In this document: positions 13,584 through 61,908 of the stretch, piece after piece
Numbering within the stretch: the first letter of the stretch is position 1
Layout of the letters: each line of letters opens with the position of its first letter
Assembly: GCF_016097555.1 (NCBI RefSeq)
Contig: NC_054707.1
Coordinates: 84,489,621-84,553,620, forward strand
Length of the DNA stretch: 64,000 nt
Reading direction: 5' to 3'
Origin: Gigantopelta aegis
Lineage: Eukaryota > Mollusca > Gastropoda > Neomphalida > Peltospiridae
Made by a program: the position numbers and the translations under genes
Notes under the pieces: model-generated
Seen by the model: the letters and a program-made list of their open reading frames with translations, nothing else
Databases searched by the model: none
Told to the model about the DNA's origin: nothing

Positions 13584-16500
13584 GTGCCTATTCTTTGTTC
13601 TTTCTTTTCATTATCTGTTTGTCTATAATTATATCAGTATCAATTTAGCTTGTTATTTATCTATCTGTCTATTTGTCTGGCTATTTGCCTGTCTTTCTGT
13701 CAATGACAGCGATAGGTAGATGTATAGATAGACTGTCTTTGTAGACAGACAGACAGACAGACAGACAATCATGCATATAATATTATAGCTATGAATATTG
13801 CACGTTAGTTCTAAGAGTAAATATATTGATCCAGGAAGTTTTAACTTTTTATTTCCAGGTATTTTATTTGGCAGTGGACAAAAATGGCGCCTCAACAGAA
13901 CGCTGTGTCTTCATACGCTGTGGGGTGATAAGGCGGAACAGGCCTTTCACCGACATTTACAAAACGAGGCTACAGACTTGCTGGCGCAGTTAGAAAGGTT
14001 TTCCGAGCGGGAAATGAACCTAACCGAAACGCTTCGCCCGTGCATCGTGAATGGCCTGTGCACTCTAATCAGAGGGTCGCGCTTTTCCTACACGGATCCA
14101 GACTTTGTGTCGCTGGTGGCCCTGCTACGCGGGGCAGACGACGTGGACTTACTTTCCCTCTCGACCGCCCTGAGTGTGAAGCTGCCCAAGCTGTGGGCGC
14201 TCATCCCCCACCAGTCCCCGGACCTGGCGGAGATAACGGCGGGACTGGCGAGCGTCATTGGGAGGTGGGTGGCGGAACGCCGCCAGTCGTGCGAGAAATA
14301 CTCGTCTGACAGTCTCATCGACGTGTTCCTCAACAGCGAACAGTATCAACAGATTAACTCAACAGGTAAACAGTAGCTCAATGCTAGGTAAACAGTAGAT
14401 CAGTGCTAGGTAATCAGTAGATCAGTGCTACGTAACCAGTAGCTCAGTGCTAGGTAAACAGTAGATCAGTGTGAGGTAAACATTAGCTCAGTGCTAAGTA
14501 AACAGTAGATCAGTCCTAGGTAAACAGTAGATCAGTGCTAATTAAACAGTAGCTCAGTGCTAGGTACACAGTAGCTCAGTGCTAGGTACACAGTAGATAA
14601 GTGCTAGGTACACAGTAGCTCAGTGCTAATTAAACAGTAGATCAGTGCTAGGTACACAGTAGATAAGTGCAAGGTAAACAGTAGCACAGTGCTAGAACAG
14701 TAGCACAGTGCTAGGTAAACAGTAGCTCAGTGCTAGGTACGCAGTAGATAGATGCTAGGTAAACAGTAGCTCAGTGCTAGGTAAACAGTAGCTCAGTGCT
14801 AGGTAAACAGTACATAAGTGCTAGGTAAACAGTAGCTCAGTGCTAGGTAAACAGTAGATAAGTGCTAGGTAAACAGTAGCTCAGTGCTAATTAAACAGTA
14901 GATCAGTGCTAGGTACACAGTAGATTAGTGCTAAGTAAACAGTAGATCAGCGTTAGGTACACAGTAGCACAGTGCTAGGCAAACAGTAGCTCAGTGCTAG
15001 GTACACAGTATATCGGTGCTAGGTAAACAGTAGCTCAGTGCTAGGTAAACAGTAGATCAGTGCTAGGTACACAGTAGATCAGTGCTACTTAAACAGTAGA
15101 TCAGTGCTAATTAAACAGTAGCTCAGTGCTAGGTACACAGTAGCTCAGTGCTAGGTAAACCGTAGATCAGTGCTAGGTAAACAGTAGCTCAGTGCTAGGT
15201 ATACAGTAGCGCAGTTCTAGGTAAACAGTAGATCAGTGCTAGGTAAACAGTAGATCAGTCCAAGGTAAACAGTAGATCAGTAGCTAAACAGTAGCTCAGT
15301 GCTAAGTACACAGTAAATAAATGATAGATAAACAGTAGCTCAGTGCTAGGTACACAGTAGCTCAGTGCTAAGTAAACAATAGATCAGTGTTAGGTACTCA
15401 GTAGCACAGTGCTAGGTAAACAGTAGCTCAGTGCTAGGTAAACAGTAAATAAGTGATAGATAAACAGTAGCTCAGTGCTAGGTACACAGTAGCTCAGTGC
15501 TAAGTAAACAATAGATCAGTGTTAGGTACTCAGTAGCACAGTGCTAGGTAAACAGTAGCTCAGTGCTAGGTAAACAGTAATTCAGTGCTAGGTACGCAAT
15601 AGCTCAGTGCTAAGTAAACAATAGATCAGTGTTAGGTATACAGTAGCGCAGTTCTAGGTAAACAGTAGATCAGTGCTAGGTAAACAGTAGATCAGTCGCA
15701 GGTAAACAGTAGCTCAGTGCTGGGGAAACAGTACATCAGTGCAAGTTAAACAGTAATTAAATGGGTAAACAGTAATTCATTGCCAGGTAAACAGTAATTA
15801 AACGGGTAAACGGTAGTTCATTGCTTGGTAAACAGTAGATCAATGCCAGGTAAGCAGTAATTAAACGGGTAAACAGTAGTTCAGTGCTAATTAAACAGTA
15901 GCTCAGTGCAAGGTAAACAGTAGCTCAGTGCTGGGGAAACAGTAGCTCAGTGCCAGGTAAACAGTAGCTCAGTGCCGGGTAAACAGTAGCTCAGTGCCAG
16001 GTAAACAGTAGCTCAGTGCTGGGGAAACAGTAGCTCAGTGCTAGGTAAACAGTAGCTCAGTGCTGGGGAAACAGTAGATCAGTGCAAGTTAAACAGTAGA
16101 TCAGTAGGTAAACAATAGCTCAGTTCTAGGTACACAGTAGATCAGCTCTAGGTAAACAGTAGCTCAGTGTTAGGTAAACAGTAGCTCAGTGCTAGGTACA
16201 CAGTAGATCAGTAGGTAAACAATAGCTCAGTTCTAAGTACACAGTAGATCAGCTCTAGGTAAACAGTAGCTCAGTGCTAGGAAAACAGTAGCTCAGTGCT
16301 AGGTACACAGTAGATCAGGTCTAGGTAAACAGTAGTTCAATGCTAATTAAACAGTAGCTCAGTGCTGGGGAAACAGTTGCTCAGTGCCAGGTAAACGGTT
16401 GCTCAGTGCCAGTTAAACAGTAGTTCATTGCTAGGTAAACAGTAGATCAGTGCCAGGTAAACAGTAATTAAACGGGTAAACAGTAGTTCAATGCTAATTA

Positions 16501-19500
16501 AACAGTAGCTCAGTGCTGGGGAAACAGTTGCTCAGTGCCAGGTAAACGGTTGCTCAGTGCCAGTTAAACAGTAGCTCAGTGCTAGGTACACAGTAGATCA
16601 GGGCTAGGTACACAGTAGACCAGTAGGTAAGCAATAGCTCAGTTCTAGGTACACAGAAGATCAGTTCTAGGTACAGAGTAGACCAGTGCTAGGTACACAG
16701 TAGACCAGTGCTAGGTAAACAGTAGCTCAGTGCCAGGTAAACAGTAGACCAGTGCTAGGTAAACAGTAGCTCAGTGCCAGGTAAACAGTAGCTCAGTGCT
16801 GGGGAAACAGTAAATCAGTGCAAGTTAAACAGTAGATCAGTAGGTAAACAATAGCTCAGTTCTAGGTACACAGAAAATCAGTTCTAGGTACAGAGTAGAC
16901 CAGTGCTAGGTACACAGTAGACCAGTGCTAGGTAAACAGTAGCTCAGTGCCAGGTAAACAGTAGACCAGTGCTAGGTAAACAGTAGCTCAGTGCAAGGTA
17001 AACAGTAGATCAGTGCTAGGTAAACAAGGTAAACAGTTGCTCAGTGCTAGGTAAACAGTTGCTCAGTGCTAGGTAAACAGTAGATCAGTGCTGGGTAAAC
17101 AGTTGCTCAGTGCTAGGTAAACAAGGTAAACAGTTGCTCAGTGCTAGGTAAACAGTAGATCAGTTCTAGGTACACAGTAGATCAGTTCTAGGTAAACAGT
17201 AGCTCTGTGCCAGGTAAACAATAGCTCAGTGCTAGGTACACAGTAGATCAGTTCTAGGTAAACAGTAGCTATATGCCAGGTAAACAGTAGCTCAGTGCTA
17301 GATACACAGTAGATCAGTTCTAGGTACACAGTAGGTCAGTGCTGGGTAAATAGTAGCTCAGTTCTAGGTACACAGTAGATCAGTTCTAGGTAAACAGTAG
17401 CTCGGTGCTAGGTGCACAGTAGATCAGTGCTAGGTATACAGTAGATCAGTGCTAGGTACACAGTAGATCAGTTCTAGGTAAACAGTAGCTCTGTGCCAGG
17501 TAAACAATAGCTCAGTGCTAGGTACACAGTAGATCAGTTCTAGGTAAACACTAGCTCTATGCCAGGTAAACAGTAGCTCAGTGCTAGATATACAGTAGAT
17601 CAGTTCTAGGTACACAGTAGGTCAGTGCTGGGTAAATAGCTCAGTTCTAGGTACACAGTAGATCAGTTCTAGGTAAACAGTAGCTCGGTGCTAGGTACAC
17701 AGTAGATCAGTGCTAATTAAACAGTAGCTCACTGCTAGGTAAACAGTGCTCTCGCAATGCTGGGTAAACAGTAGCTCAGTGCTAGGTAAACAGTAGATCA
17801 ATGCTAGGTTAACAGTAGATCAGTGCAAGGTAAACAGTAGATCGCAGTGCCAAGTACACAGTGGCTCAGTGCTAGGTAAACAGTAGCTCAGTGCTGGGTA
17901 AACAGTAGCTCAGTGCTAGGTAAACAGTAGATCAGTGCTAAGTAAACAGTAGATCAGTGCTAGGTAAACTAGTTCAGTGCTAGGTAAACATTAACTCAGT
18001 GTTAGGTAAACAGTAGCTAAATGCTAGGAAAACAGTAGCTCAGTGCTAGGTACACAGTATATCAGTGCTAGGTAAACATTAACACAGTGCTAGGTAAACA
18101 GTAGCTCAGTGCTAGGTAAACATTAGCTAGAATAGATTGCTTAAATAAAGTGTACTGAGTAATGGGATCGCATATCATGGGTAATATTTATATATTACGT
18201 TGCTGCTAGTCGAAATAAGTATGCCCATGTTGTAGTAGTGTCTCTCTTCTCTCGTCTGCAAACAGTGTTTTACAGTTATAGTTACATGAGGGGTCAGTCA
18301 GCACCATCTGGGGGGAACCAATGCTCATAGTGATGTTTGTCACGCATTACATCCCTACTGATGGAACATTTATGATAGCATTGCAGGACTCACAGCTTTC
18401 TGTGTGTAACTACCCGTTTTGTGACCCTACCCCCATTTTCACGACAGTTCTATTTTTTATAGAATGAATTGCTAACGGGTGACTATATTAAAAGCATTGT
18501 AAAATATTTGTCAGGGCATTTAGGAATACAAACATGTGAAGAATGGGAGGTAATGGATTGATGAATTCAGATATGTTACCAATATTGAAATCCTTTGTGG
18601 ATTATGGTCTCATATAAAAAACAATTCTGTAACGTTACAAAATACAATTCACAGTTTTACTTTTCATTAGCAATTTAACATATAGTTTAGCACCTCAAAT
18701 ATTCTCTTTGATGGTTTTAATTACAGCAGAAGCTCATTTGGACATCCAGTTGTTAGTTACATCCTATAAATTATAAAGTTTTGTTGCAGGATTGTCTGTG
18801 TAATTACACATTTGATAACACTGACCTTATTTCCTGACCTTATTACCAGTGACTTACGCTCATTGTAACCCTCTCGAGATGACACGACTGACCCAAGCAG
18901 GAATTAACCTTTCTTGTGGTAGTCCCCCACTCAGGTTATCTTTTCGATAAATATTTTAACCCTGGGTTTTTATTTGAACTGTTTGTATAACTTTTCTTAT
19001 GTTTGTCCCCATTCAACTTATCTTGTGATGTGATGATCCTTTTAACGCTAGGTTTCTTTATTATTTGAACTGGTGTTATACTCCTCTTGACCCCTCGATC
19101 TCAATCAGCACACCACCTCCAATGTTTACTTACGTGACCGTGCCTGCAGTATATTATTGTCGATCCTACCTAAACTGTATTATGTGTGAACAGGTCTCCT
19201 GGGAAACATTCACACGGACGCTCATCGTGTACTCTCGGATACTGTAGGTGTCCGACTGTAGCTGTGTTGTAGTCCTCAAACTGTAACCGGCCTCGGTGAC
19301 GTAGTGGTTAAGCCATCGGACTACAGGCTGGTAGGTACAGGGTTCGCAGCCCGGTACCGGCTCCACCCAGAGCGAGTTCTTAAGGGCTCAGTGGGTAGGT
19401 GTAAGGCCACTACACCCTCTTCTCTCTCACTAACCACTAACAAACTAACAACTAACCCACTGTCCTGGACAGGCAGCCCAGATAGCTGAGGTGTGTGCCC

Positions 19501-22500
19501 AGGACAGCGTGCTTGAACCTTAATTGGATATAAGCACGAAAATAAGTTGAAATCAATCAATCAATCAAACTGTATTATGTGTGAACAGGTCCCCTGGGAA
19601 ACATTCACACGGGCGCTCATCGTGTACTCTCAGATACTGTAGGTGTCCGACTGTAGCTAATAATGAGGCTAATATTGGTATATGTTCCCAGGTCTTGTTA
19701 AACCCTACAATGCTCACTAACTCGTCTATAGTCAGCTGCTATAATATGTGGTGGAAAGATAGTCGTAATGAAGTGCCTTTCGGTCGCATCTATTACAATA
19801 CGCAAGTTGGTTATTGAAGTTTACAGCACGACGCAATCACTACATGCAGATGTTTTACGGTTTGTTTGTATGTTGTTTTCAGATGACGAAATGGTGCAGT
19901 CGGCGATAGACATGTTTAACTACATGTAGATGTTTTACGGTTTGTTTGTATGTTATTTTCAGATGACGAAATGGTGCAGTCGGCGATAGACATGTTTAAC
20001 TACATGTAGATGTTTTACGGTATGTTTGTATGTTGTTTTCAGATGACGAAATGGTGCAGTCGGCGATAGACATGTTTAACTACATGTAGATGTTTTACGG
20101 TATGTTTGTATGTTGTTTTCAGATGACGAAATGGTGCAGTCGGCGATAGACATGTTTAACTACATGTAGATGTTTTACGGTATGTTTGTATGTTGTTTTC
20201 AGATGACGAAATGGTGCAGTCGGCGATAGACATGTTTAACGGAGGTCTGGTGGCCAGCCTGTCTGGGCTGGAGTTCCTCTTCCTGTATCTAATTCACAAC
20301 CCGGATGTTCAAAGCAGGATACAGGGAGAAATTGATGATGCCATTGGTTCCGACCGGAAGCCGTCATGGGTGGACCAATCCAAACTGCCGTATACGGTAG
20401 CCACGGTAATGGAGACTCTGAGACTAGCCTGCATTACACCGAGCACGCTGCCGCACGTGGCCACGCGTGACGTCACAGTGCACGGATACAGTGTGCCAAA
20501 AGGAAGTGGAGTTGTGGCCAGCATATTTTGTCTTCATAGGCAATCGGCACAGCACGAGGATCCCGAGACGTTTAATCCCGAGAGATTTCTAAACAAGGAC
20601 AGCACTCTACGGACACCCAGTGACTTCATTCCGTTTGGCGTTGGTAAGTGACAACTAGAATGTCAGAATAGAAGAAAGACTTCACTCCATTTGGCGTTGG
20701 TAAGTGACAACTAGTCTGTCAGAATAGAAGAAAGACTTCATTCCATTTGGCGTTGGTAAGTGACAATTAGAATAAAAGAAAGACTTCATTCCATTTGGCG
20801 TTGGTAAGTGACAATTAGAATAAAAGAAAGACTTCACTCCATTTTGCGTTGGTAAGTGACAACTAGTCTGTCAGAATAGAAGAAAGACTTCATTCCATTT
20901 GGCGTTGGTAAGTGACAATTAGAATAAAAGAAAGACTTCATTCCATTTGGCGTTGGTAAGTGACAATTAGAATAAAAGAAAGACTTCACTCCATTTTGCG
21001 TTGGTAAGTGACAACTAGTCTGTCAGAATAGAAGAAAGACTTCACTCCATTTGGCGTTGGTAAGTGACAATTAGAATAAAAGAAAGACTTCACTCCATTT
21101 GGCGTTGGTAAGTGACAACTAGTCTGTCAGAATAGAAGAAAGACTTCATTCCATTTGGCGTTGGTAAGTGACAATTAGAATAAAAGAAAAAGTAAAGTTT
21201 GTTTTATAAAACGACGCCACTAGAGCACATTGATTTTTTATCCTATCATCGGCTATTGGACGTCAAACATATGGTCATTCTGACACTGTTTTTAGAGGAA
21301 ACCCGCTGTCGCCACATAGGCTACTCTTTTTACGACAGGCAGCAGGGGATCTTTTGTTTGCGCTTCCCACAGGCAGGATAGCACAAACCGTGGCCTTTGT
21401 TGAACCAGTTATGGATCACTGGTCGGTGCAAGTGGTTTACACCTACCCATTGAGTAGAATAAAAGAAAGACTTCACTCCATTTGGCGTTGGTAAGTGACA
21501 ACTAGTCTGTCAGAGTAAAATAAAGACTTCATTCCATTTGGCTTTGGTAAGTGACAACTAGTCTGTCAGAACAGAAGAAAGACTTCACTCCATTTGGCTT
21601 TGGTAAGTGACAACTAGTCTGTCAGAATAGAAGAAAGACTTCACTCCATTTGGCGTTGGTAAGTGACAACTAGTCTGTCAGAATAAAAGAAAGACTTCAT
21701 TCCATTTGGCGTTGGTAAGTGTTAGCATATGCAACATTTCAACTGTTATTTGTAGTGGTGTAACAATACACTCAAATATTCAGTGCACCGAACAGCGACC
21801 TGTATCGTAGTTGTATTCGCATTCGCGGCTGCATGAACCGAATACACGCGAATATTATAATGTAACTGCATGTCGTATGGTTAAGCATACGCCAGTCACG
21901 CTGTTTGAATTGAAATTCAACAGCAATTATTTTATATCAAAAGCAGACACGTAGGCTTACAATATATACTATTAAGACCATCATGCCAATTATTAGACTG
22001 GTGTCTGGACCACTGTTTCGCAAGTCTAAAATTGAACATACGTACATGCAACTCAGGGGCGTACCGAGCCATTTTTGATGTGGATTCCAAATTTACAGTC
22101 GAGCACCGAAGGTGCGAGTGTTGTAGGGGGGTCTGGGGGCATCAACCCCCCCCCCCCCCCCCTCCCCCCGAACATTTTTGAAACCTAGACGTCATATGGT
22201 GCACTCTGGCGACTTTAAGAACTAATTTTACACCTATAAATAAACTTTGAAATCGCAAGTTTTAATGCGCAATTTGTAAAATGTTTTTGTTTGGGGGGGG
22301 GGGGGGGGGGAATGACGTGAACGCCACTGCGTACTTGCGTACAGGCAGGTACGCGCCTGCAACTGAATAAGCAAATGCATCATAATACCATGTTTTAATT
22401 ATTATGTGTGAATTTCTGACTTGTCAGCACGTTTTTGCCTATATGCATTGTATTCATGAATAAATAGTTGTATTCGTCACCTTATATTCGTGATACGTAT

Positions 22501-22780
22501 CGTATTCGCCACCCTGTGTATTCGTTACACCTCTAGTTATTTGTGTATTTCAGCACCACGGAACTGCCCCGGCGACAGATGGTTTCACGTGTTAGCATTC
22601 CTGATCCTCACGTGGGTTCTTCAGTCGTACAGTGTGAGCCAACCACAGGGGGAGGAGTTACCGCCCTTCAAAACGAAGATGCGGATCGTGAGGCGACTCG
22701 AGCCGTATTCTCTGGTTTTAACGCCTCGGAAAACCTCGTCAAAGTTCGTCTCAGAAAACAAAAGTCAAGATATTAATTAA
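13268..22780 (+). CDS. Cytochrome P450 (clan 2-like), 4 coding exons, 496 aa
   Basis: This is a haem-thiolate monooxygenase-family protein, expected to be anchored in the ER membrane. The exons are 13268-13583, 13859-14365, 20203-20643 and 22554-22780. All three introns are phase 1 with GT-AG ends, and the joined frame is 496 codons plus TAA, a normal P450 length. Visible motifs are an N-terminal membrane helix (about residues 5-27) followed by RRR, the hinge PPGPWGVPLLG, the C-helix W115xxxR119, the K-helix E345-T-L-R348, and PERF at 400-403. The haem loop is F419-G-V-A-P-R-N-C426-P-G, where Cys426 is the iron ligand. Two departures stand out: the I-helix reads GGLVA (288-292), where the family usually has an acid and a Thr, and Ala422 replaces the usual Gly. 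The hinge and exon 2 opening (GILFGSGQKW) point to clan 2. Subfamily and substrate cannot be assigned from sequence alone. Confidence 0.93.
13584..13858 (+). other. P450 intron 1
   Basis: A 275-bp phase-1 intron with gtgcct at the 5' end and 'ttttatttccag' at the 3' end. It contains short (gaca)n and ctatctgt-type simple repeats. Confidence 0.85.
13859..14365 (+). CDS. P450 exon 2
   Basis: Completes codon 106 and encodes residues 107-274, opening with GILFGSGQKW and containing the C-helix WRLNR. GC content is clearly higher than in the surrounding introns. The donor is acag|gtaaac, and the 22-bp minisatellite begins at this junction. Confidence 0.93.
14363..18128 (+). repeat. 22-bp minisatellite grown from the exon 2 splice donor, ~170 copies
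   Basis: The unit is about 22 bp: 'aggtaaacagtagctcag' then 'tgct'. Common variants are gtacac for gtaaac, gatcag for gctcag, and gccagg for gctagg. The first unit is the real exon 2 / intron 2 boundary (acag|gtaaacagtagctc), so nearly every unit carries AG|GTAAAC or AG|GTACAC. Some local higher-order duplications occur, for example around 17160-17700. The last recognisable unit ends near 18128. Confidence 0.95.
18129..19170 (+). other. P450 intron 2, unique part
   Basis: Non-repetitive AT-rich intron sequence with no gene, tRNA or clear mobile element recognised. Confidence 0.5.
19171..19662 (+). repeat. ~95-bp tandem duplication interrupted by a SINE
   Basis: A segment of about 95 bp, opening 'aactgtattatgtgtgaaca' and ending 'gtgtccgactgtagct', occurs at about 19171-19264 and again at about 19567-19660, with a SINE between. 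The SINE either entered one copy of an existing duplication or was carried into it. Confidence 0.85.
19285..19563 (+). mobile_element. tRNA-derived SINE with (atca)n tail
   Basis: The head is 'ggcctcggtgacgtagtgg' and the box-B-like site is GGTTCGCAGCC (19341-19351). The body includes 'agcgagttcttaagggctc' and 'tggatataagcacgaaaat', ending in 'caatcaatcaatca'. The repeated 'tcaaactgta' at both ends is a likely target duplication. It is the same family as 25112-25345. Confidence 0.85.
19841..20240 (+). repeat. 80-bp repeat of the exon 3 splice acceptor, 5 copies
   Basis: Copies start at 19841, 19921, 20001, 20081 and 20161. Each holds 'tgtatgttgttttcag' (polypyrimidine tract plus AG) and the first 38 nt of exon 3 (atgacgaaatgg...). 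Only the last copy continues into full exon 3. In the earlier copies the exon part runs straight into 'tacatgtag' and meets a stop after about 15 codons, so using an upstream acceptor without re-splicing would truncate the protein. Confidence 0.95.
20203..20643 (+). CDS. P450 exon 3
   Basis: Completes Asp275 and encodes residues 276-421. It carries the I-helix, K-helix ExxR (E345, R348), PERF (400-403) and FIPFGV at the start of the haem loop. The acceptor is the last of five tandem copies and the donor (gttg|gtaagt) is the first of about 16. The frame open from 20190 and running into GK* after FGVG is unspliced sequence. Confidence 0.93.
20625..21722 (+). repeat. 48/56-bp repeat of the exon 3 splice donor, ~16 copies
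   Basis: Units of 48 or 56 bp contain the last 17-18 nt of exon 3 (gacttcattccatttggcg), the donor g|gtaagtgac and about 25 nt of intron ('aactagtctgtcagaatag'). The first unit is the genuine exon end. Copies have ccattt for the exon's ccgttt, so the extra copies share one ancestor. A SINE interrupts the array at 21190-21454. Confidence 0.95.
21190..21454 (-). mobile_element. 5'-truncated SINE inside the donor array, 14-bp target duplication
   Basis: The plus strand reads from the SINE 3' end ('agtaaagtttgttttataaa') to 'acacctacccattga', so the element is on the minus strand and lacks its tRNA-like head. The duplication 'tagaataaaagaaa' (21176-21189 and 21455-21468) is array sequence, so the SINE landed after the array had formed. 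It is the same family as 35281-35678. Confidence 0.9.
21723..22553 (+). other. P450 intron 3, remaining part
   Basis: Unique sequence with a poly-C tract near 22147-22163 and a poly-G tract near 22293-22310. The acceptor is 'tatttgtgtatttcag' ending at 22553. Confidence 0.7.
22554..22780 (+). CDS. P450 exon 4
   Basis: Completes codon 422 (g + ca = Ala) and encodes residues 423-496. It begins PRNCPGD, with the haem-ligand Cys426, and ends with a P450-like C-terminus (EPYSLVLTPRK) plus about 15 further residues before TAA. Confidence 0.92.
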
Positions 22781-25856: not shown

Positions 25857-25908
25857 ATGTCTGCGCCCAGGACGAGCTGTCTGATAGTTGTCAGTTCGGC
25901 TGTCGAAG
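25857..25908 (+). CDS. GATD1: GATD1 exon 1
   Basis: Encodes [17 protein letters not shown] plus the first base of Gly18. The ATG gives the N-terminal beta strand at the expected distance from GVSAQSF in exon 2. The donor gaag|gtttgt is weaker than the other donors of this gene. Confidence 0.88.
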
Positions 25909-28900: not shown

Positions 28901-31900
28901 CACAGCTGACTTTCTATATGTCACTACACAGCTGACTTTCTATATTCACTACACAGCTGATGTTTTGTCACTATATGCAGCTGACTTTCTATGTCACTAT
29001 ACAGCTGACTTTCTATATGTCACTACACGGCTGACATTCTATATGTAGCTACACAGCTGATGTTTTGTCATTACACAGTTGATTTTCTATATAATAGTAT
29101 ATGTCATTACACAGCTGACTTTTTATGTCACTACACAGCTGACTTTCTATATCATAGTATATGTCATTACACAGCTACAGGTAGGGAAAATTATACACAT
29201 TATGCAACTATATTCAATAGTATTTTTTCTTTTAACCAAAAAGTAATTTAATGCAGGATTTTCGGGATTTCTAAAAATAAAATTGAGTTTAAAATAAGTT
29301 TAAAGTTAACATCCCAGCCTGTGATTTTAGAAATAAACATGATAAATAAATATTTGTTTTTCAGGAGTGTCAGCACAGTCATTTATACAAGCCTACACTC
29401 TAGCCAGCTCAAACTTCTCAATCCAGCTAGCATCTCCAGGGGTAAGTCTGTTCACATGTTACTGTTTTACACTGTCGGTCATTTATACAAGCCTACACTC
29501 TAGCCAGCTCAAACTTCTCAATCCAGCTAGCATCTCCAGGGGTAAGTCTGTTCACATGTTACTGTTTTACACTGTCGGTCATTTATACAAGCCTACACTC
29601 TAGCCAGCTCAAACTTCTCAATCCAGCTAGCATCTCCAGGGGTAAGTCTGTTCACATGTTACTGTTTTACACTGTCGGTCATTTATACAAGCCTACACTC
29701 TAGCCAGCTCAAACTTCTCAATCCAGCTAGCATCTCCAGGGGTAAGTCTGTTCACATGTTACTGTTTTACACTGTCGGTCATTTATACAAGCCTACACTC
29801 TAGCCAGCTCAAACTTCTCAATCCAGCTAGCATCTCCAGGGGTAAGTCTGTTCACATGTTACTGTTTTACACTGTCGGTCATTTATACAAGCCTACACTC
29901 TAGCCAGCTCAAACTTCTCAATCCAGCTAGCATCTCCAGGGGTAAGTCTGTTCACATGTTACTGTTTTACACTGTCGGTCATTTATACAAGCCTACACTC
30001 TAGCCAGCTCAAACTTCTCAATCCAGCTAGCATCTCCAGGGGTAAGTCTGTTCACATGTTACTGTTTTACACTATCGGTCATTTATACAAGCCTACACTC
30101 TAGCCAGCTCAAACTTCTCAATCCAGCTAGCATCTCCAGGGGTAAGTCTGTTCACATGTTACTGTTTTACACTATCGGTCATTTATACAAGCCTACACTC
30201 TAGCCAGCTCAAACTTCTCAATCCAGCTAGCATCTCCAGGGGTAAGTCTGTTCACATGTTACTGTTTTACACTGTCGGTCATTTATACAAGCCTACACTC
30301 TAGCCAGCTCAAACTTCTCAATCGAGCTAGCATCTCCTGGGGTAAGTCTGTTCACATGTTACTGTTTTACACTATCGGTCATTTATACAAGCCTACACTC
30401 TAGCCAGCTCAAACTTCTCAATCCAGCTAGCATCTCCAGGGGTAAGTCTGTTCACATGTTACTGTTTTACACTATCGGTCATTTATACAAGCCTACACTC
30501 TAGCCAGCTCAAACTTCTCAATCCAGCTAGCATCTCCAGGGGTAAGTCTGTTCACATGTTACTGTTTTACACTATCGGTCATTTATACAAGCCTACACTC
30601 TAGCCAGCTCAAACTTCTCAATCCAGCTAGCATCTCCAGGGGTAAGTCTGTTCACATGTTACTGTTTTACACTATCGGTCATTTATACAAGCCTACACTC
30701 TAGCCAGCTCAAACTTCTCAATCCAGCTAGCATCTCCAGGGGTAAGTCTGTTCACATGTTACTGTTTTACACTATCGGTCATTTATACAAGCCTACACTC
30801 TAGCCAGCTCAAACTTCTCAATCCAGCTAGCATATCCAGGGGTAAGTCTGTTCACATGTTACTGTTTTACACTGTCGGTCATTTATACAAGCCTACACTC
30901 TAGCCAGCTCAAACTTCTCAATCGAGCTAGCATCTCCTGGGGTAAGTCTGTTCACATGTTACTGTTTTACACTGTCGGTCATTTATACAAGCCTACACTC
31001 TAGCCAGCTCAAACTTCTCAATCGAGCTAGCATCTCCAGGGGTAAGTCTGTTCACATGTTACTGTTTTACACTGTCGGTCATTTATACAAGCCTACACTC
31101 TAGCCAGCTCAAACTTCTCAATCCAGCTAGCATCTCCAGGGGTAAGTCTGTTCACATGTTACTGTTTTACACTGTCGGTCATTTATACAAGCCTACACTC
31201 TAGCCAGCTCAAACTTCTCAATCCAGCTAGCATCTCCAGGGGTAAGTCTGTTCACATGTTACTGTTTTACACTGTCGGTCATTTATACAAGCCTACACTC
31301 TAGCCAGCTCAAACTTCTCAATCCAGCTAGCATCTCCAGGGGTAAGTCTGTTCACATGTTACTGTTTTACACTGTCGGTCATTTATACAAGCCTACACTC
31401 TAGCCAGCTCAAACTTCTCAATCCAGCTAGCATCTCCAGGGGTAAGTCTGTTCACATGTTACTGTTTTACACTGTCGGTCATTTATACAAGCCTACACTC
31501 TAGCCAGCTCAAACTTCTCAATCGAGCTAGCATCTCCAGGGGTAAGTCTGTTCACATGTTACTGTTTTACACTGTCGGTCATTTATACAAGCCTACACTC
31601 TAGCCAGCTCAAACTTCTCAATCCAGCTAGCATCTCCAGGGGTAAGTCTGTTCACATGTTACTGTTTTACACTATCGGTCATTTATACAAGCCTACACTC
31701 TAGCCAGCTCAAACTTCTCAATCGAGCTAGCATCTCCAGGGGTAAGTCTGTTCACATGTTACTGTTTTACACTGTCGGTCATTTATACAAGCCTACACTC
31801 TAGCCAGCTCAAACTTCTCAATCCAGCTAGCATCTCCAGGGGTAAGTCTGTTCACACGTTACTGTTTTACACTATCGGTCATTTATACAAGCCTACACTC

Positions 31901-46300: not shown

Positions 46301-47718
46301 CGTGACCACACAGTAAGGGGTGTAACAATACAATAGTGTGACCACACAGTTAGGGGTGTAACAATACAACAGCGTGGGTGTAACAATACAACAGCGTGAC
46401 CACACAGTTAGGGGTGTAACAATACAACAGCGTGGGTGTAACAATACAACAGCGTGACCACACAGTAAGGGGTGTAACAACAGCGTGACCATAGTTAGGG
46501 GTGTAACTATACAACAGCGTGACCACACAGTAATGGGTGTAACAATACAACAGCGTGACCACACAGTAAGGGGTGTAACAATACAATAGTGTGACCACAC
46601 AGTAAGGGGTGTAACAATACAATAGTGTGACCACACAGTAAGGGGTGTAACAATACAATAGCGTGACCACACAGTAAGGGGTGTAACAATACAACAGCGT
46701 GACCACACAGTAAGGGGTGTAACAATACAACAGCGTGACCATAGTTAGGGGTGTAACAATACAACAGCGTGACCACACAGTTAGGGGTGTAACAATACAA
46801 CAGCGTGACCACACAGTAAGGGGTGTAACAATACAACAGCGTGACCACACAGTAAGGGGTGTAACAATACAATAGTGTGACCACACAGTAAGGGGTGTTA
46901 CAATACAACAGCGTGACCACACAGTAAGGGGTGTAACAATACAACAGCGTGACCACACAGTTAGGGGTGTAACAATACAACAGCGTGACCACACAGTTAG
47001 GGGTGTAACAATACAACAGCGTGACCACACAGTAAGGGGTGTAACAATACAACAGCGTGACCACACAGTAAGGGGTGTAACAATACAACAGCGTGACCAC
47101 ACAGTTAGGGGTGTAACAATACAATAGTGTGACCACACAGTAAGGGGTGTAACAATACAATAGTGTGACCACACAGTAAGGGGTGTTACAATACAAAAGC
47201 GTGACCACACAGTAAGGGGTGTAACAATACAACAGCATGACCACAGTTAGGGGTGTAACAATACAACAGCGTGACCACACAGTAAGGGGTGTAACAATAC
47301 AACAGCGTGACCACACAGTAAGGGGTGTAACAATACAACAATGTGACCATACAGTTAGGGGTGTAACAATACAATAGTGTGACCATACAGTTAGGGGTGT
47401 AACAATACAATAGTGTGACCACACAGTAAGGGGTGTAACAATACAATAGTGTGACCAAACGGTTAGGGGTGTAACAATACAATAGCGTGACCACACAGTA
47501 AGGGGTGTAACAATACAACAGCATGACCACACAGTAAGGGGTGTAACAATACAACAGCGTGACCATAGTTAGGGGTGTGACCACACAGTAAGGGGTGTAA
47601 CAATACAATAGTGTGACCATACGGTTAGGGGTGTAACAATACAATAGTGTGACCACACAGTAAGGGGTGTAACAATACAATAGCGTGACCACACAGTAAG
47701 GGGTGTAACAATACAGTA
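43343..47718. repeat. 36-bp minisatellite, ~120 copies, with higher-order blocks
   Basis: The 36-bp unit contains 'ggggtgtaacaatacaacag' and 'cgtgaccacacagtaa'. The length keeps frames open on both strands (up to 453 codons), but only a 12-residue repeat is encoded. Distinct variant strings recur in order, for example 'gaccataaagttagg' followed by 'gcatgatcatacagttagg' and 'atagtgtgaccacacag', at about 43840, 44768 and 46090. This shows duplication of blocks of roughly 1 kb. Confidence 0.96.
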
Positions 47719-48365: not shown

Positions 48366-49744
48366 CAATGGAATGGTAGCCTAATGCTAAAATGTTGATC
48401 TAGAAAATAAAATACAAACATTGAAAACAAATTGAATTTTTGTGAAGCATCGTTTTGAAAAGAGAATATTAGAAATGTCATGTTAATTTTTGTTTTTTAA
48501 TTAATTTGGTTTGGGGATTGTATCGAAACCAGTGTTATTTTGTAACGTATACATGTATTTCGTATGTAAATAAAAGCTATTATTGTTAATATTGCAGGCA
48601 GTCTAAAGCAGCCGGAAACAAGTATTTGTGATATTTTGTGTTGCTACAGGATCGTCTTGTTAGATTTTCACAAATGTGGAGAACAATATAACCAAGTATT
48701 CATGCCAAACAATTGAGGAAAAACAATTGTGTCACTGTGTACAGTGATATTAAAAGTCACTGAATATTCAAATTTTTTGTTGCAATTTATTTTTAATTAT
48801 GTTTTGCTTTTCACACTTTGTTATCAGTTATGATTGGGCATTGAGTATTTTTATACTGTGATCTACACACACTCTGGTGTGGTATTATAATACAGTATTC
48901 ACAAATGTGCCAAGAGTATTTTTTTAGGAAGGCTTCTAACAAAAATAAAATATACGATACAAATCCAAGTTTATTTACTGAAATCTCAAAAGGTATCATA
49001 TCAGGGTATTCAGTTTAATTACTTATGGCAGTTTCGTGGTTTTATTCTTAAACCGGATACATTTTTATTATCCCCTCATGAGTCTTTTTTAAACCGGATA
49101 CATTTTTTTCGTTTTGTATCTCACCGACCCTTTTCCTTTCTCTCCTTTGAATTCCATCTAATTTTTTCCCGATCTGGCAGCTCCTCCCATCTTTTAACTT
49201 CTTTCACGGTCCACCTCCACATCCCAGTCCTTGTCTCTCCAACTGACACGTTTGCCACACACCTGCCGTTTTCCATCAGCTTTAGCTGTGGGCGTAATCT
49301 GACCACTTCAGAGTGTGTTCAGTAGTTACTGCTGGCACTTTAACCACCTACATTCCCCTCCTACTGGCGGTCATTAGTGCCATGGGTCTGACCAGCTTAA
49401 TTAGTGGCAGAGCATGAGGATGCAGGTGGGTGCAGGGAAGTACATAGACTGCACCCATGGATGAAGTTGGGTGCAGGGAAGTACATAGACTGCACCCATG
49501 GATGAAGTTGAGATAGGTGTGGATAGCTCAGAAGACCGAGTCGGAGGATATTGACAGACACGGTCGAAACAGACTGAAATCGTGGGAGATTTTAGGGTTT
49601 TGGGGGTATGTTCCCCGAAAAGTTTTCAAATAAATATGCTTTAGTTTGTGGATGATGAATTAAAACGTCATTAAAAATAACACTTCAAACAGGTGGGAGG
49701 GGAATATATGACTCCCAAAATAACAACCTGTTAATCATGATGAC
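48366..49744. other. No gene recognised
   Basis: AT-rich sequence up to about 49100, then more balanced. A 37-bp duplication ('gtgcagggaagtacatagac', 'tgcacccatggatgaag') lies at about 49430-49510. A 61-codon minus-strand frame at 49121-49306 has no recognisable domain. Confidence 0.4.
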
Positions 49745-51834: not shown

Positions 51835-51922
51835 CTTGAGGACAGGTAATGTATCTATAAAAGAGAAAACACTTCAAGTTTTCTCCATTTCTATAGACAT
51901 TACCTGTCCTCAAACAAGTGCA
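51835..51922. repeat. DIRS internal complementary region
   Basis: The first part ('gaggacaggtaatgtatc' to 'caagttttctcc') is the reverse complement of the left terminus. The second part ('atttctatagacattacc' to 'tgtcctc') is the reverse complement of the right terminus. The junction between them (about 51891) therefore marks both element ends. Confidence 0.9.
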
Positions 51923-52506: not shown

Positions 52507-53757
52507 TCAACGGCGACGAGGACGGCTTGTATTCAACAGAGTCTGTGCAGCAACAACCGGACCCAGATGATGGAACCCCTCAACGTCTTCTGTGGAAACA
52601 TCCCTCAGATAATAGTTGGCGAAGATGGAGTCCGTAGCCCAGAAACAGCCAGTGATGATGTGCTGAATGGATGTGTTGCAGTGCAGGGACATCGTGGCAG
52701 CCAAGGCACGGAATTCATGCGGATTGGAAGCAGATGGAGCAGGTAAACCCTCCTTCTGATAGGCGGTCAGGATAGACGACCGGATCCAGGTGGCCACCGT
52801 GTTCTTGGTAATATCCCTCAACCGACTCTGGTTACAGGAGAGGAAAAGTCTTTTACAATGTTGTCGAAAAGATCTGGTCCTCTCGATGTACTGGTGCAGG
52901 GCTCTAACAGGGCACAACGCCAAGTCCTCAACGTCCGCTGGACCAACGATAGAGGAGAGGGCCTGCACAACATACGAGCGAGGCGCTTGGTCTGGTAACT
53001 GATTCTTTGCAACAAAGTTCATGAGTAACCCCAAGTTGACTGCACGCCGATCTCAGTGAAAACGTACCAAGTCTACATCAAGAGCATGAAGTTCTGAGAC
53101 ACGAGCAGCCGTGGCGAAACCGAGTAAAAACACCGTCTTCCGTGTCAAATCTTGCAGGGAAGAGGACTCGATCGGCTCATAAGGTGCGGTTGATAACGCT
53201 CGTAACACCAGATTCAAGTCCCATCTTGGTGGCCGAAACCGGTGTACTTGATCTTAAAGGCGAAACCCTTTGATCATCTTATGGATCTCAGGAATACCCG
53301 ATAACTTCGTTCCAGTAGTGACATCACGAACAGTAGCGATGACCGAAACGTACCCAGCGATGGTAGACCCCTTCAATCGTAAAGTGGTCCGCAGATACAG
53401 CAAAAAATCAGCAAGACGAGGTATCTGGATCGTCTGAGGTTTGAGTTTTTTCCGGACACACCATCGGTGAAAGCAAAGCCATATGACATTGTAAGCCGCA
53501 GTAGTAGATGATCTGTGCGCTTTCAAAATGGCCGCCGTAGACTGTGAAGAAAAACCTTTCTTCCTCAAACTCTTGGAGATAAAGTCCACGCGTGCAGTTG
53601 GAACAACTGCGGACGTGGATGGTATAGTCTTGACGTGGGATGCAGCAACAGATGATCCCAGTCTGGCAGCGGTAAAGGATGTGGATCGGCAAGACGTATT
53701 AGATCTGGATACCACATCCTGGATGGCCACATCGGAGCAATGAGCAACAGGCGACAA
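52507..53757 (-). pseudogene. DIRS tyrosine recombinase, two in-frame stops
   Basis: This is a tyrosine recombinase that would integrate circular DIRS DNA. One reading frame covers the whole region, but it is interrupted by a TAA at 53254-53256 and a TGA about 70 codons later, both by single substitutions; the frame itself is kept. Catalytic landmarks are the first Arg (ATAARVSELHAL), the H-x-x-R box (NPHEFRALAA) and the nucleophilic Tyr in FANYYLRDV. The family-typical PPRWDLNLVL follows the first stop. The N-terminal core-binding-like part lies at 53254-53757. Its upstream end overlaps the end of the RT/RNase H ORF in a different frame, as in other DIRS elements. Confidence 0.88.
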
Positions 53758-55783
53758 TGGTACAGCTGAAACCTCTGAAGCACCCTTGGAAGGAGGATTG
53801 GTGGAGGAAAAGCGTACGCGTCCATCTGTTCCCAGCTGATGGCCAATGCGTCGAGATCCCCAGAGCTTCGGGATCCGGCACCGGAGACACGTAAACCCTC
53901 AGCTGATGGTTGAATCGTGTGGCGAAAAGATCGATGTTTGGTGTCCAAAGTCTGTCGCACACCCATCGAAACGCTTCCGGATGGAGCATCCACTCCGTCG
54001 GCTGTGGAGACGACGGTCGGGATAATGTGTCGGCTAGTACATTGGAAACCCCTGGAATATGACGAGCCCGAAGTTGCAATGGAATTTCGTCGACCAGCTT
54101 GTAGAGACGATAAGTCAACTGCAGCAGACTGCTGGAGTGAGTTCCGCCCTGACGATTGATGTAAGCCGCCGTGGTCGTACTGTCTGTGGCCACCATGAGA
54201 GAGGCTTCCGTCAACATCTGTCGCCAATGAAGGATAGCGTAATAGACTGCCAACAACTCTAACAGGTTGATGTGGAGTCCGAGTTCGCCGGGAGACCACA
54301 GCCCTGAAGTAGTCTGGTTGCTTAGATGGGCTCCCCAACCTTCCAATGACGCGTCGACGAACAGGTGATGAGTGGCTATGAAGGCCCGCATAGAGACACC
54401 TTCTAAGACGTTCGATCGGAGCTGCCACCACTGCAGGCTGGAGCGTAGATCGTCCGGGAGTGAGATGATCAAGTCCGGATTGTTGAAACGAACAAACGGG
54501 TTGAGAAACATCTGCAAGCGCCGCAACTGGAGACGACCTCTGAGTGTCAAATCCTGGGCGGAAGTGAGGAGACCCAGGAGACTCTGCCAACCGCGGTAGG
54601 TCATTGGAGCGGTGAGGGCTATGGCAATCATGGTCTGGATCTTCTCCCAATGGTCTAAAGGAACTTGAACGAGGCCCAGGTCGGGTCGAAGCCAAGCGCC
54701 TATGAACTGTAGAGACTGCGTGGGAGCCAGTCGAGATTTCTCGATGTTGATAATCCAACCCAGCTGCTTGAGAAAGTCCATGATGAAGGCAACATGTGCA
54801 GTCAGCCCTGTCTTGCTGTGACTCCTCATCAGGCAATCGTTGAGGTATGGGTAAAAGGATATACCTCTGTGATGCAGGAAGCGTGACATCGGAGTCGTGA
54901 TTCTGGTGAACAGCCATGGCGCTATGGATATCCCAAAGGGCAGGACTGTCCATTCGTAATGCCGACCCTGTAGCACAAACCGCAGGTAGTGATGGAAATC
55001 GGCATGCATCGGAACGTGCAGGTAGGCGTCCTTGAGATCCAGCGAGGCAAGCCAATCCCCCGGTCTGATCACGGCTATGACATCTCGCAACGTTAACATC
55101 TTGAAGGTCGGAGGAGGAGACAGGTAGTGGTCGTTGAAGACCGCCAAGTTGTGAATCATTCGCAGCTCCGGAGAATCTTTCTTTGGTACGAGAAAGATGT
55201 CCGAGTAAAAGCCGGGTGTTAAGTGTACTTCCGAAATGCTGCGAACGGCTCCCTTCTCCACCAGCTTGTTGACGGACTCCTGTAGAACCTTGACTTGCGC
55301 AACGGAATGCCGCGGTTCTCGAGGTGAAGTGGTCAATGGAGGGATGGCAGACAATTGCAGACGATACCCTGTCTTCAAGATCGACGTGACAAACGGATCT
55401 TGGCAAAGTGTCTGCCAGTTTCGCCAATAATGGCGAAGTCGACTTCCGACCATGGATCTTCCGACCGGTGTGGTACACACCGGAAGCGTCAAAACCGAAT
55501 CGCTGTTCTGGTTCAAAAATAGGGGCGGGCGTAGGTTGAAGCAATCTGAGCAGTCCACGATCTGTTGGCTGGCGTCAACGTCGACCAGGCTTCCCCTGGG
55601 TCCGAGCTGGCAGACCGGATGGTCGTCTGACCAGAAACCGTCGAGAAGGTTGACCTCGAAAGGAACCTCTCCAGCGCTTAGATGGTGGTTGTGGTGTGAA
55701 TGTAGACTTTCGCTTCGTAGATTCCAATGTCGAAATAAGTTGCAACGCTTTGACAGTTGCTGTCGACTGTTGGTCCTTATCAT
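53565..55783 (-). pseudogene. DIRS reverse transcriptase / RNase H polyprotein, frameshifted
   Basis: The RT part shows SLDLKDAYLHVPM, LPFGISIAPW and the active-site loop YLND, where the family normally has YLDD, so one catalytic Asp is lost. RNase H follows with LFVDAS, HINLLELLAV, ATDSTTTAAYINRQGG and HIPGVSNVLADTLSR. Then comes NIDLFATRFNHQL and a DIRS-type C-terminal domain (WEQMDAYAFPPPIL, LLLIAPMWP), possibly the methyltransferase-like region. The last part is in a different frame from the rest: a one-base indel near 53850-53870 separates them. The first frame then runs on artefactually to 53699, whereas the true C-terminus ends at 53565. The start is uncertain; 55783 is the first Met and overlaps the gag-like ORF end. 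Confidence 0.9.
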
Positions 55784-57161
55784 TGGCCTTCACCACCTCA
55801 GAAACTTTGCCTGCAAACAGCTTCGTTGCGGACCACGGTTGAGCTAACAGCTCCTTCTTATGCTGGAAATCCAAAGTGGATTTTTTCAGATAAGCCTGGC
55901 GACGGTATTGCATCAACATCGAGGACATCGAAGTCACCGAAGACGTCAGGAAAGCTAGCATCTGCGCCGATTGCTGGAACAGCGCGTAGCACCGTGCATC
56001 TTTTGCCTGGGTGGCCATCGCCGCAAGGAAAACGTCCAAGTAAGATAACACAAACAACCAACGTCTCTGGGCAGTATCCATGGCTTGTACTTGTTTGTCC
56101 GTCAAATCCACGGTTGACGACTTCCCAAGACGGTGAACATCTTCATCCAAAGACGGAGCTACATCTGTAAAGGGCATGTCAAACACCGGATACATACGGT
56201 GACCCCAAGACGGGAAGGCGACAAAAGATGCTGTGTCTTTAAAAGTGCGGTCTAAATCTGTCGCCACCTCAGATACGAGTGTACCGGCTGCCAAGGAACG
56301 GATCACCACATCTTCCGGAGGGACATCAGTCGCTATCATCGGTGTCGGTCCCTTCTTGGACGGCGTTGGTGGATGTGGCAAGGACGGCAACATGTCATAG
56401 ACGGCCGCCAAGCAATCCCTCATATTCATATGGTCAGGAGATTCAGTCTCATCAATGACGGAAACCGCTGTAGGCGCTGCATCTCCAAAGTCTCGAAGCA
56501 CTCGAGCACAGGCTAATCGATCCGCCGAAACAGAAGTCACTGGTGAACCGGACCGTGGACGGTCCCGTCGAGAACCCTCTGAAGACTCAATAGAAGGTCT
56601 GCGCTGCCGATCCACGGAACCCGTAGGGAGACGTGCAGGTCGTGGGGAACGGCTACGAGCCCGGCTCCGCTGCGCCGAAGATGACTTCCCCGCTGAAGAT
56701 CGGTGATCCTTGGAGGCCGTGGAACGTCTTAACTGATTGAGTAGGCTTGTCAGAGGGCTGCGTAGGAACCGCAGGCCTGTCATGTGAAGTCTTGCGTCCT
56801 GGAGCCGCACCCCCCGAAGAGGGGACTTGAACCGGACCTGGCCCCAAACCCGCCGGTTCTGGTAAGGCCGCCATTGATGCCATAGTCTCTTTCAGCATAG
56901 TGGGTAGCATCGAACGTAATACATCTGCTACGGAGTCCGCAATTGACGGCGAAGATTCACTTTCTTGGCTCTCGCCGACACCACCTTCAAGTAAGCGCGC
57001 GAACTCGACAGTAGAGACAGGCCCGAACACAGGTCGCATCTCGAAGAGAGGCTACAAGGAACACGGCAACCCGGACATAATTCATGAGGGTCGCCGCCTG
57101 CAAGTGAACTTCTTACAGCATAGGCACGTCGTACCTGTCGCTGAACATTAACATCTGACAT
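55575..57161 (-). pseudogene. DIRS gag-like ORF1, two frameshifts
   Basis: It probably starts at 57161 (MSDVNVQRQVRRAY), soon followed by a Cys-rich motif CPGCRVPCSLSSRCDLC that resembles a zinc finger. Around 57000-57035 the coherent reading moves to another frame (FARLLEGGVGESQES). Around 56700-56740 it returns to the first frame, giving the basic RSRARSRSPRPARLP segment and a long conserved-looking C-terminal part (to 55575) rich in predicted helix. The role, by analogy with other DIRS elements, is a nucleic-acid-binding gag-like protein. The exact indel sites are inferred. Confidence 0.75.
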
Positions 57162-57802: not shown

Positions 57803-59680
57803 TCATTATAATGTGTCCAAACTGCAAGATTTTGACAATGTTCACACCCAACCAGACCACACCAACCCAACCCAACCCAACCCAAACCCACACCCACACC
57901 CAACCCAAACCCAGACCAGACCCAACCAACCCAACCACACCCACACCCAACCCAGACCACACCAAACCCAGACCCAACCCAGACCACACCCAACCACACC
58001 CACACCAACCCAACCACACCCAACCCAACCCACACCACACCAACCCAACCCAACCCAACCACACCAACACAGACCAACCCAACCCAGCCACACCCAACCA
58101 ACCCAGACCACACCCAACCAACCCAGACCAGACCCAACCCAACCAACCCACTCATACAAACCACACCCAAACCAGACCACACCCAACCCAACCCACTCCT
58201 ACAAACACACCCAACCCAACCCACTATACAAACCACACCCAACACAAACCAAACCCAACCCAACCCACTCATACAAACCACACCCAACACAAACCACACC
58301 CAACCCAACCCACTCATACAAACCACACCCAACCCAAACCAACCCACTCATACAAACCACACCCAACCAGGACCACACCAACCCAGACCACACCGACCCA
58401 GACCACACCCAACCCAACCCACTCATACAAACCACACCCAACCCGACCCAAACCACACCCAACCCAAACCACACCCACCGGAGTTGGCCGATATCACACA
58501 AATATTTATGACAATGTTCACACTCATACAAACCACACCCACCACACTCGTACAAACCACACCCACCACACCCACCCCAAACAACACCGACCACACTCAA
58601 CCCAAACCACACACACCACACTCATACAAACACACCCAACCCAACCCACTCATACAAACCACACCCAACCCAAACCACACCCAACCCACTCATACAAACC
58701 ACACCCAACCCAAACCACACCCAACACCCAACCCAACCCACTCATACAAAACCACACCCAACCCAACCCACTCATACAAACCACACCCAACCCAACCATA
58801 CAAACCACACCCAACCCAAACCACACACAACCCAACCCACTCCCAACCCAAACCACACCCAACCCAACCCACTCATACAAACCACACCCACCACACTCAT
58901 ACAAACCACACCCAACCCAAACCACACTCACCACACTCGTACAAACCACACCCACCACACCCATACAAACCACACCCAATCCAGACCACACCCAACCCAG
59001 ACCACACCCAACCCAGACAAGACCACACCCAACCCAGACCACACCCAACCCAACCCACTCATACAAACCACACCCAACCCACTCATACAAACCACACCCA
59101 ACCCAGACCACACCCGACCCAGACCACACCCAACCCACTCATACAAACCACACCCACCACACCCAACCCGACCCAAACCACACCCAACCCAGACCACACC
59201 CAACCCAAACCAACCCAAACCACACCCAACCCAAACCACACCCAACCGGGAGTTGGCCGATATCACACATATATTTATGACAATGTTCACACTCGTACAA
59301 AAACACCAACCCACCACACACCACCCACCCAATCACCATATATTTATGACACACCCCACCGGGAGTTGGCCGATATCACACATATATTTATGACAATGTT
59401 CACACTCATAACATTCATAAAATCACCCCAAACCGGGAGTTGGCCGATATCACACATAATTTATGACAATGTTCACAACTCATACAAACCACACCCAACC
59501 CGATATCACACATATTTTATGACAATGTTCACACTCATACAAACCAACACCCAACCCAAACCACACCCAACCGGGAGTTGGCCGATATCAACATATATTT
59601 ATGAAATGTTCACACTCACACAAACCACACCCAAACCGGGGAGTTGGCCGATATCACACATATTTATGGAAAACTGTTCT
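57803..59680. repeat. CA-rich satellite inside segmental duplication copy 2
   Basis: Begins 'gtgtccaaactgcaagatt' as in copy 1, then about 1.8 kb of C/A-rich repeats ('aacccaaaccacacccaa', 'actcatacaaaccacaccc'). These are interspersed with a longer motif: 'ggagttggccgatatcaca', 'catatatttatgacaatg', 'ttcacactc'. Copy 1 has each of these motifs once (50620-50690). The long frames on both strands are repeat by-products. Confidence 0.93.
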
Positions 59681-60125: not shown

Positions 60126-60707
60126 TGGTTTTGCAACATTTCCGATGCCTTGTTTATTGCAAAATTACTCAAAATGCACAAAATTACTTTGCAAACAGAA
60201 AAACACATTTTACATTTGTATATACATATATTTCTATAAAATATAACACCTAAAACGGCAAAAACATAAAAAACAAACATTAAATATGTGTTCCCAACAA
60301 AGACATACTGAACAAACATCAACTTATGTAACAGCCCTGACTGAGATGAGATTGTCCTCCATAACAGTACCACAAATTGCTATCCCACTGAAAAACCAAT
60401 GAGAATATTCATTACCTATCACAAGATTAGTAATTTCTTGATTGGTTAGTCTGAATGGCTATAACCAATCCATGTTCTTACTAGAAACTAATTTATGATA
60501 CATTCATGGCAATGTTATTTGATTTAAAAATTCTTGGGATGCATTCAGTTTATAGGTTAAATTCACTTGTTAACTTTCAGATCCATTTAACTTAAGCACA
60601 AAAAGCCAGTGACGAGTCTAGCTTAAGTTTCTCAACACCACGAACGGCTCATGTTCTCCGACCGCAGTACAGATGCGTTTATAAAATACTTTATAAAAGA
60701 CACCTCA
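60126..60707 (-). terminator. Probable 3' UTR of the BPL_N gene
   Basis: Sequence downstream (on the minus strand) of the BPL_N stop codon. A minus-strand AATAAA lies at 60153-60158. No other gene is supported here; assignment as UTR is by position. Confidence 0.35.
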
Positions 60708-61122
60708 TCAAAAGTTCACGGTTATTCTCAAGCGTCTCAGAAGGTCAGTTAAAACAGTCGATCCTCTCTGCGTCCCATTTGTCAAGTGTGTCGACAAATC
60801 GTTGAATGCACGGATCATCTCGTGCCAGTAGGCTGCTGTCGTATTGGGATGTATCCCTGTGAGAATGGCTAGCCCGTTGTCCCCGACGACTTTGACTTCA
60901 CGATGGCCGCCGGCGTACCAGGAAGACTGTTGTACCATGCGAGGATTTCTACTGTCTGATCACTGTCTCCTTCTCCGTACAAAGTGAACTGGCCACCTCC
61001 GTTATAGTACGAGGAGAAGGTCACTGGTTGCCCCGACAATGGTTTGTAGGTCACAGAGGCTGCACTGGCTCCCTTGAAAGATCTGTATTTGAAGCCAGGA
61101 AACACTGGGCCCCGACAATACC
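60708..61122 (-). CDS. BPL_N-domain protein (biotin-protein ligase N-terminal-like), last exon, with 1-bp frameshift
   Basis: This is the C-terminal exon of a protein with a biotin-protein-ligase N-terminal (BPL_N) domain, which has a class-I glutamine amidotransferase-like fold; its function in animals is unclear. The exon follows the minus-strand acceptor 'tttatttctatcag' and begins YCRGPVFPG, which may be the nucleophile-elbow Cys region. Family landmarks are FSSYYNGGGQF, VEILAWYNSLPGTPAAIVK and GLAILTGIHP, and it ends LRITVNF with TGA. The first part (61122 to about 60900) and last part (about 60897-60708) are in different frames. A single missing base just after PAAIVK, near 60895-60900, accounts for this, either as a sequencing error or as a real lesion. 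Upstream exons are not visible and probably lie beyond the gap. Confidence 0.75.
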
Positions 61123-61908
61123 TGATAGAAATAAAACATGGTCTTAAGCCTGGAACCACTGGGCCTCGAGAAATACTTGATAGAAGTTAAACCATGGTCT
61201 TAAGCCTGGAACACTGGGCCTCGACAAATACCTGATAGAAGTTAAACCATGGTCTTAAGCCTGGAACACTGGGCCCCGACAAATACTGATAGAAATAAAA
61301 ACATGGTCTTAAGCCTGGTACACTGGGCCCTGACAAATACCTGATAGAAATAAAAACATTGTCTTAAGCCTGGAACACTGGGCCTCGACAAATACCTGAT
61401 AGAAGTAAAAACATGGTCTTAAGCATGGAACACTGGGCCCAGACAAATACCTGATAGAAATAAAAACATGGTCTTAAGCCTGGAACACTGGGCCCTGACA
61501 AATACCTGATAGAAATAAAAACATGGTCTTAAGCCTGGAACACTGGGCCTGACAAATACCTGATAGAAATAAAAACATGGTCTTAAGCCAGGAACACTGG
61601 GCCTGACATATACCTGATAGAAATAAAAACATTGTTTTAAGCCCGGAACACTGGGCCCTGACATATACCTGATAGAAATAAAAACATTGTTTTAAGCCGG
61701 GAACACTGGGCCCTGACAAATACCTGATAGAAATAAAAACATGGTCTTAAGCCTGGAACACTGGGCCTCGACAAATACCTGATAGAAGTAAAAACATGGT
61801 CTTAAGCATGGAACACTGGGCCCAGACAAATACCTGATAGAAATAAAAACATGGGTTTAAGCCTGGAACACTGGGCCCTGACAAATACCTGATAGAAATA
61901 AAACTTTA
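61095..61908 (-). repeat. ~55-bp repeat of the BPL_N exon splice acceptor, ~14 copies
   Basis: On the minus strand each unit contains 'tttttatttctatcag' (polypyrimidine tract plus AG), then about 27 nt of the exon start ('gtatttgtcagggcccagtg', 'ttccaggctt'), then 'aagaccatg'. The real exon is the last copy in the direction of transcription. Units vary slightly (ccctgac, cctcgac, cccagac). The array runs into the N gap. Confidence 0.93.

Follow-up and report, generated by a model that had tools for sequence, protein, structure and literature searches.

Mirage-type minisatellites overlap splice junctions in genes of the snail Gigantopelta aegis

Mirage-type minisatellites, a kind already known from amphioxus, occur in the deep-sea vent snail Gigantopelta aegis, in a phylum new for them. 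Within the 64,000-nucleotide stretch of DNA that we analysed (the window; C9:84489621–84553620), six of the 21 splice junctions that could be defined overlap a minisatellite that begins at the edge of the exon or inside it, and the three genes affected carry mutually unrelated units. We consider it probable that the arrays were founded by random duplications that straddled a junction, were tolerated and then expanded in the ordinary way. Their presence in a snail, housekeeping genes included, suggests that such arrays may occur wherever a genome makes many minisatellites. They are also natural tests of the choice among identical competing splice sites, with near-identical competitors amounting to 30 donors in GATD1 and five acceptors in P450, and they provide exon-derived splice sites of relevance to the origin of introns.

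Gene models were reconstructed from splice sites, with GATD1 exons 1 and 8 located with the aid of the NCBI Gigantopelta aegis protein P0001. The first gene, a P450 on the plus strand, comprises four exons (13268–13583; 13859–14365, with the donor at 14365/14366; 20203–20643; and 22554–22780, the coding part of exon 4), and its spliced product of 496 amino acids is an exact match to the NCBI Gigantopelta aegis protein P0121, ‘methyl farnesoate epoxidase-like’. GATD1, also on the plus strand, has eight exons: exon 1 (coding part, 25857–25908), exon 2 (29365–29441, of which 64 of 77 bp lie inside the first array unit), exon 3 (33261–33366), exon 4 (36446–36553), exon 5 (37282–37379), exon 6 (39430–39523), exon 7 (40772–40883) and exon 8 (coding part up to the stop codon, 48598–48631). 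The junctions of exons 3, 4, 6 and 7 are without an array, a 45-bp array beginning 22 bp beyond the exon 3 donor, and the spliced product of 226 amino acids matches P0001 exactly. These exact protein matches rule out amphioxus as the source of the window. The third gene lies on the minus strand and encodes a BPL_N domain (Pfam PF09825, E 2.9e-13); its last exon alone was seen (60700–61121, low end approximate; acceptor 61121/61122). In the assembly this exon shows a one-base frame switch near its middle, and a gap of 200 N (61912–62111) starts eight bases past the array at its acceptor, perhaps reflecting a long-read error and an assembly break caused by the array.

TRF returned 132 rows for the window and, after merging, the arrays make up 49% of it. 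In P450, 173 copies of a 22-bp unit begin at the exon 2 donor (14364–18128), five copies of an 80-bp unit lie across the exon 3 acceptor, the last adjoining the exon (19839–20240), and a 48/56-bp array crosses the exon 3 donor, its first copy adjoining the exon (20622–21189), with a continuation (56 bp × 4.8; 21456–21721) beyond 266 bp of unrelated sequence. In GATD1, a 100-bp unit is repeated 30 times with 99% matches across the exon 2 donor (29378–32351) and a 76-bp unit six times across the exon 5 acceptor (36874–37323); in the BPL_N gene, 15 copies of a 55-bp unit lie across the last-exon acceptor (61092–61903, minus strand). The sequence-only reading from which this study started had described six arrays with units composed of part of an exon, a splice site and part of an intron. 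All six were recovered by TRF, and the description holds for five, whose units contain 22–64 bp of exon (in P450, 38 bp at the exon 3 acceptor and 22 bp at the exon 3 donor; in GATD1, 64 bp at the exon 2 donor and 42 bp at the exon 5 acceptor; and 30 bp in BPL_N); for the 22-bp unit it needs correcting, since the exonic part is AG only, 2 bp. In all six arrays the functional junction resides in the terminal, exon-contiguous copy, which is the first copy at a donor and the last at an acceptor. Further arrays begin or end 22–79 bp from GATD1 junctions without taking in exon (33388, 37415, 39596 and 40342).

A repeat family common to the six units is ruled out, as all 15 pairs of unit consensus sequences score inside the shuffled range; what the arrays share is position rather than sequence, as had been proposed. 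The 80-bp and 100-bp arrays are 98–99% uniform and the other four have 80–93% matches. From its homogeneity of 99% across 30 copies, the GATD1 exon 2 array appears to be recent or homogenised; the figure for the 22-bp P450 array is about 80%. A P450 paralogue, 62% identical in exon 3 to the window P450, lies some 40 kb from that gene and 20 kb beyond the window; it has no array at either exon 3 junction and carries big arrays upstream in intron 2. The exon 3 arrays are therefore specific to the window copy, which bears out the earlier suggestion of independent expansion. Exon 2 of the paralogue was not located in 4 kb of further sequence.

Most copies retain a potential splice site. Among recognisable copies, the functional one included, those with an intact splice dinucleotide number 142 of 173 (GT) in the 22-bp array, 5 of 5 in the 80-bp array and 16 of 16 in the 48/56-bp array of P450, 30 of 30 at GATD1 exon 2 and 5 of 6 at exon 5, and 14 of 15 in BPL_N. 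The consequences of using these decoys were checked in four arrays, namely the two at P450 exon 3 and the two of GATD1, and all 14 checked decoys with an intact dinucleotide are predicted on sequence to give a premature stop: four of four at the P450 exon 3 acceptor, four of four at its donor, four of four at the GATD1 exon 2 donor (4 of 29 available) and both of those keeping AG at the exon 5 acceptor, where a third decoy examined had lost its AG. Because the decoys lead to early stops, normal protein requires the exon-contiguous copy, and from the annotated NCBI proteins, which equal the normal products, we infer that this is the copy used in splicing. The retention of GT or AG in most copies could alternatively indicate that the arrays function in splicing or expression, with decoys acting as regulators or yielding alternative isoforms. 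We give this little credence: retention requires no selection if the copies are of recent origin or have been homogenised, as they may be, the decoys that were checked would truncate the product, the P450 paralogue does without exon 3 arrays, and the affected genes differ, with no logic in common.

Comparable structures have been described in amphioxus, where, according to PMC3087553, ‘mirage’ minisatellites are known in Adh (Adh3), with units of 10–72 bp, and in the globins BflGb6 and BflGb9, with units of 150–160 bp; PMC3902484 reports PGBD5 repeats that overlap splice sites in amphioxus and cites troponin C as another case. The snail arrays resemble these in having units of exon part, splice site and intron part, at donors or acceptors, and in affecting different genes with varied unit lengths. 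They differ in their host phylum, Mollusca rather than Cephalochordata, and in reaching 173 copies; and whereas length and somatic instability and splicing by RT-PCR have been reported for amphioxus, the snail arrays are known from one assembly. In the open-licence literature, the mirage reports that we found concern lancelets only and no mollusc case of minisatellites at splice junctions was found; by term search, the word ‘minisatellite’ is absent from the main text of two published G. aegis genome papers, and in a Conus paper retrieved by the gastropod literature search its sole mention is in the title of a reference. With the amphioxus mirages as precedent, and with a count that largely follows minisatellite abundance, the arrays are less unusual than the sequence-only reading had held. 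In period, copy number and homogenisation they are like ordinary intronic minisatellites. The contig measures 84.9 Mb, and 364 kb separate the window from its end; in vertebrates, minisatellites cluster near chromosome ends. Unlike ordinary intronic minisatellites, all six overlap a splice junction.

A link to intron gain had also been drawn. In the model of Rogers (1989), AGGT within an exon is reportedly duplicated to create a new intron. That model is cited in PMC3087553, in which the amphioxus globin authors propose a tandem-duplication route to intron gain, and PMC4974935 describes intron gain by tandem genomic duplication in potato RdRp, a case that the snail arrays resemble in that extra splice sites arise within a gene. 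The arrays could on such grounds be early intermediates of intron gain through tandem duplication of AGGT-containing exon sequence, and their units do hold splice sites and pieces of exon. We judge this still less credible than a functional role. All six arrays lie on junctions of existing introns and, unlike the events of the Rogers model, duplicate those junctions into the introns already present; the array copies lie inside introns that the functional exons already delimit, and the three gene models show no extra array-derived intron and no visible gain.

For a sample outside the window, chaperonin (PF00118) exons were taken without regard to arrays: 39 of 64 listed matches, at nine gene loci, made up of 19 in three nearly whole genes and 20 with 160-bp flanks. 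Matches were excluded if they lay on small contigs or were long and uninterrupted, and certain others were also omitted. The 39 exon matches give at most 78 junction edges, being HMM edges of which some are possibly start or stop codons. Three arrays span a junction, at two of the nine gene loci, with units of splice site and exon sequence and an exon depth of 8–12 bp by TRF: one of 61 bp × 2.4 at an acceptor of the C11 gene (GCACAG/ATCATTGA), one of 50 bp × 3.5 at the L033 acceptor and a more diverged one of about 44 bp × 3 at the L032 acceptor, L032 and L033 sharing one locus. Three others come close to an edge, beginning 2 bp beyond the donor (L040), ending about 8 bp ahead of the acceptor (L045) or ending 22 bp from the edge (the C2 gene). 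In the P450 genes L022–L024, with exons taken from the listed P450 matches, none of 13 edges of eight exons has a junction array. Outside the window, then, arrays span three exon edges among a maximum of 91, and two more arrays lie 10 bp or less from an edge. This small sample suggests that junction arrays recur beyond the window. Around some kinesin and chaperonin exon matches the search listing gives open frames of 450–680 codons; L032 and L033 have stops close upstream in all frames, despite the long open frames listed. In L023, which belongs to another P450 gene, a 21-bp (7-codon) tandem repeat occupies 2244–2318 within the P450 exon match span.

Recurrence also bears on whether the arrays could be artefacts of assembly from noisy long reads. 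Such an origin might be suspected for the BPL_N array, near a gap and at an exon with a one-base frameshift, and the copy numbers of the highly uniform 80-bp and 100-bp arrays are possibly wrong. We nevertheless regard an artefact as extremely improbable: the published host assembly, which we infer to be the one analysed here, was built from PacBio fragments selected at 8–50 kb; copies are individually distinct in four of the six arrays; and the same structure is seen on three contigs, C9, C11 and C4.

The number of arrays expected to span junctions under random founding was derived from a background sample of 205 kb at preset positions on 15 contigs, in which 77 arrays, 47 of them with a score of 100 or more, cover 16% of the sequence. 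Depending on the threshold, 0.8–1.3 spanning arrays are expected per 78 edges and 1.0–1.5 per 91, compared with the three observed (Poisson p 0.05–0.14 and 0.08–0.19, respectively); one of the three has fewer than three copies and, at three copies or more, the comparison becomes two with about 0.9 expected. In P450 and GATD1 together, 4–5 of 16–21 arrays span a junction against 0.9–1.6 expected (p 0.006–0.05 across nine threshold settings), p-values that are optimistic because the window was chosen for its junction arrays. Of the pooled array edges, 11 of 19 lie in an exon or 10 bp or less from a junction (5.2 expected, p 0.005, at 150 bp), or 11 of 17 when the first 100 bp only are used (6.5 expected, p 0.023), in tests designed after the data had been seen, with distances partly read by hand and one P450-paralogue array included. 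When the two sets are considered separately, such edges make up 6 of 11 or 12 in the window (p 0.21 or 0.08) and, in the other genes, 5 of 6 or 7 (p 0.03 or 0.02). Observed counts thus exceed the random-founding expectation in both the window and the chaperonin sample, which counts against random founding; the preference for junctions is suggestive, with p about 0.005–0.2 by test and partly post hoc, and array density may rise toward exons. The genome-wide process envisaged in the sequence-only reading is accordingly borne out in so far as the structure extends beyond the locus, the attraction to junctions being suggestive at most.

Splice junctions could be hotspots that found tandem duplications, so that arrays are made there more than elsewhere, with transcription, R-loops, pausing, nucleosome boundaries or AGGT-preferring break and repair as candidate causes. 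The excess at and beside junctions in the window and edge tests is in keeping with this, as are hits on donors as well as acceptors across several genes and the three whole chaperonin genes, which are array-poor (their 48 kb contain seven arrays, a density not half that of the other sampled sequence) and yet have one array spanning a junction and one ending 22 bp off. However, the window was picked post hoc, the edge tests share the drawbacks given above, the spanning count outside the window is not significant alone, and young transposon insertions filling introns could mimic a junction bias by diluting interior density. We think targeting of junctions unlikely. Also rather unlikely is a broader proposal in which G. 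aegis would have a genome-wide, junction-biased process of tandem duplication, of separate origin from that in amphioxus, that has placed decoy arrays at several per cent of junctions, and so in thousands of genes; its spliceosome would dependably choose the exon-contiguous copy among up to 173.

We favour random straddling followed by ordinary expansion, which would proceed as follows. A short tandem duplication would by chance straddle an exon/intron boundary, and it would be tolerated as harmless because one copy stays joined to the exon and splices while the rest fall in the intron. The array would then grow and homogenise like any minisatellite, carrying along from a few to more than 100 decoy splice sites, and splicing should choose the exon-contiguous copy, since the decoys give premature stops. 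With the minisatellite richness of G. aegis, chance alone would bring straddling to one or two per cent of junctions, and the window, which is array-dense and near a contig end, shows more of it; the mild excess at and beside junctions may stem from old, unique exon-flanking DNA or from a weak junction bias.

The window contains other elements besides. Rfam detected no structural RNA in it at gathering scores. In GATD1 intron 7, a 4.4-kb stretch of 36-bp repeats (43351–47715) stands between the main part of the gene and its last codons, which are in exon 8 (at 48598). A retroelement on the minus strand (52510–56891) has reverse transcriptase and RNase H-like domains (Pfam RVT_1 and RT_RNaseH, 53702–55786), and the open frames on either side of them match nothing in Pfam. 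Two C/A-rich satellites (57843–59247 and 62387–63849) are strongly strand-asymmetric, with a GC skew of about −0.74 and CCAAC/ACCACACCC-like words.
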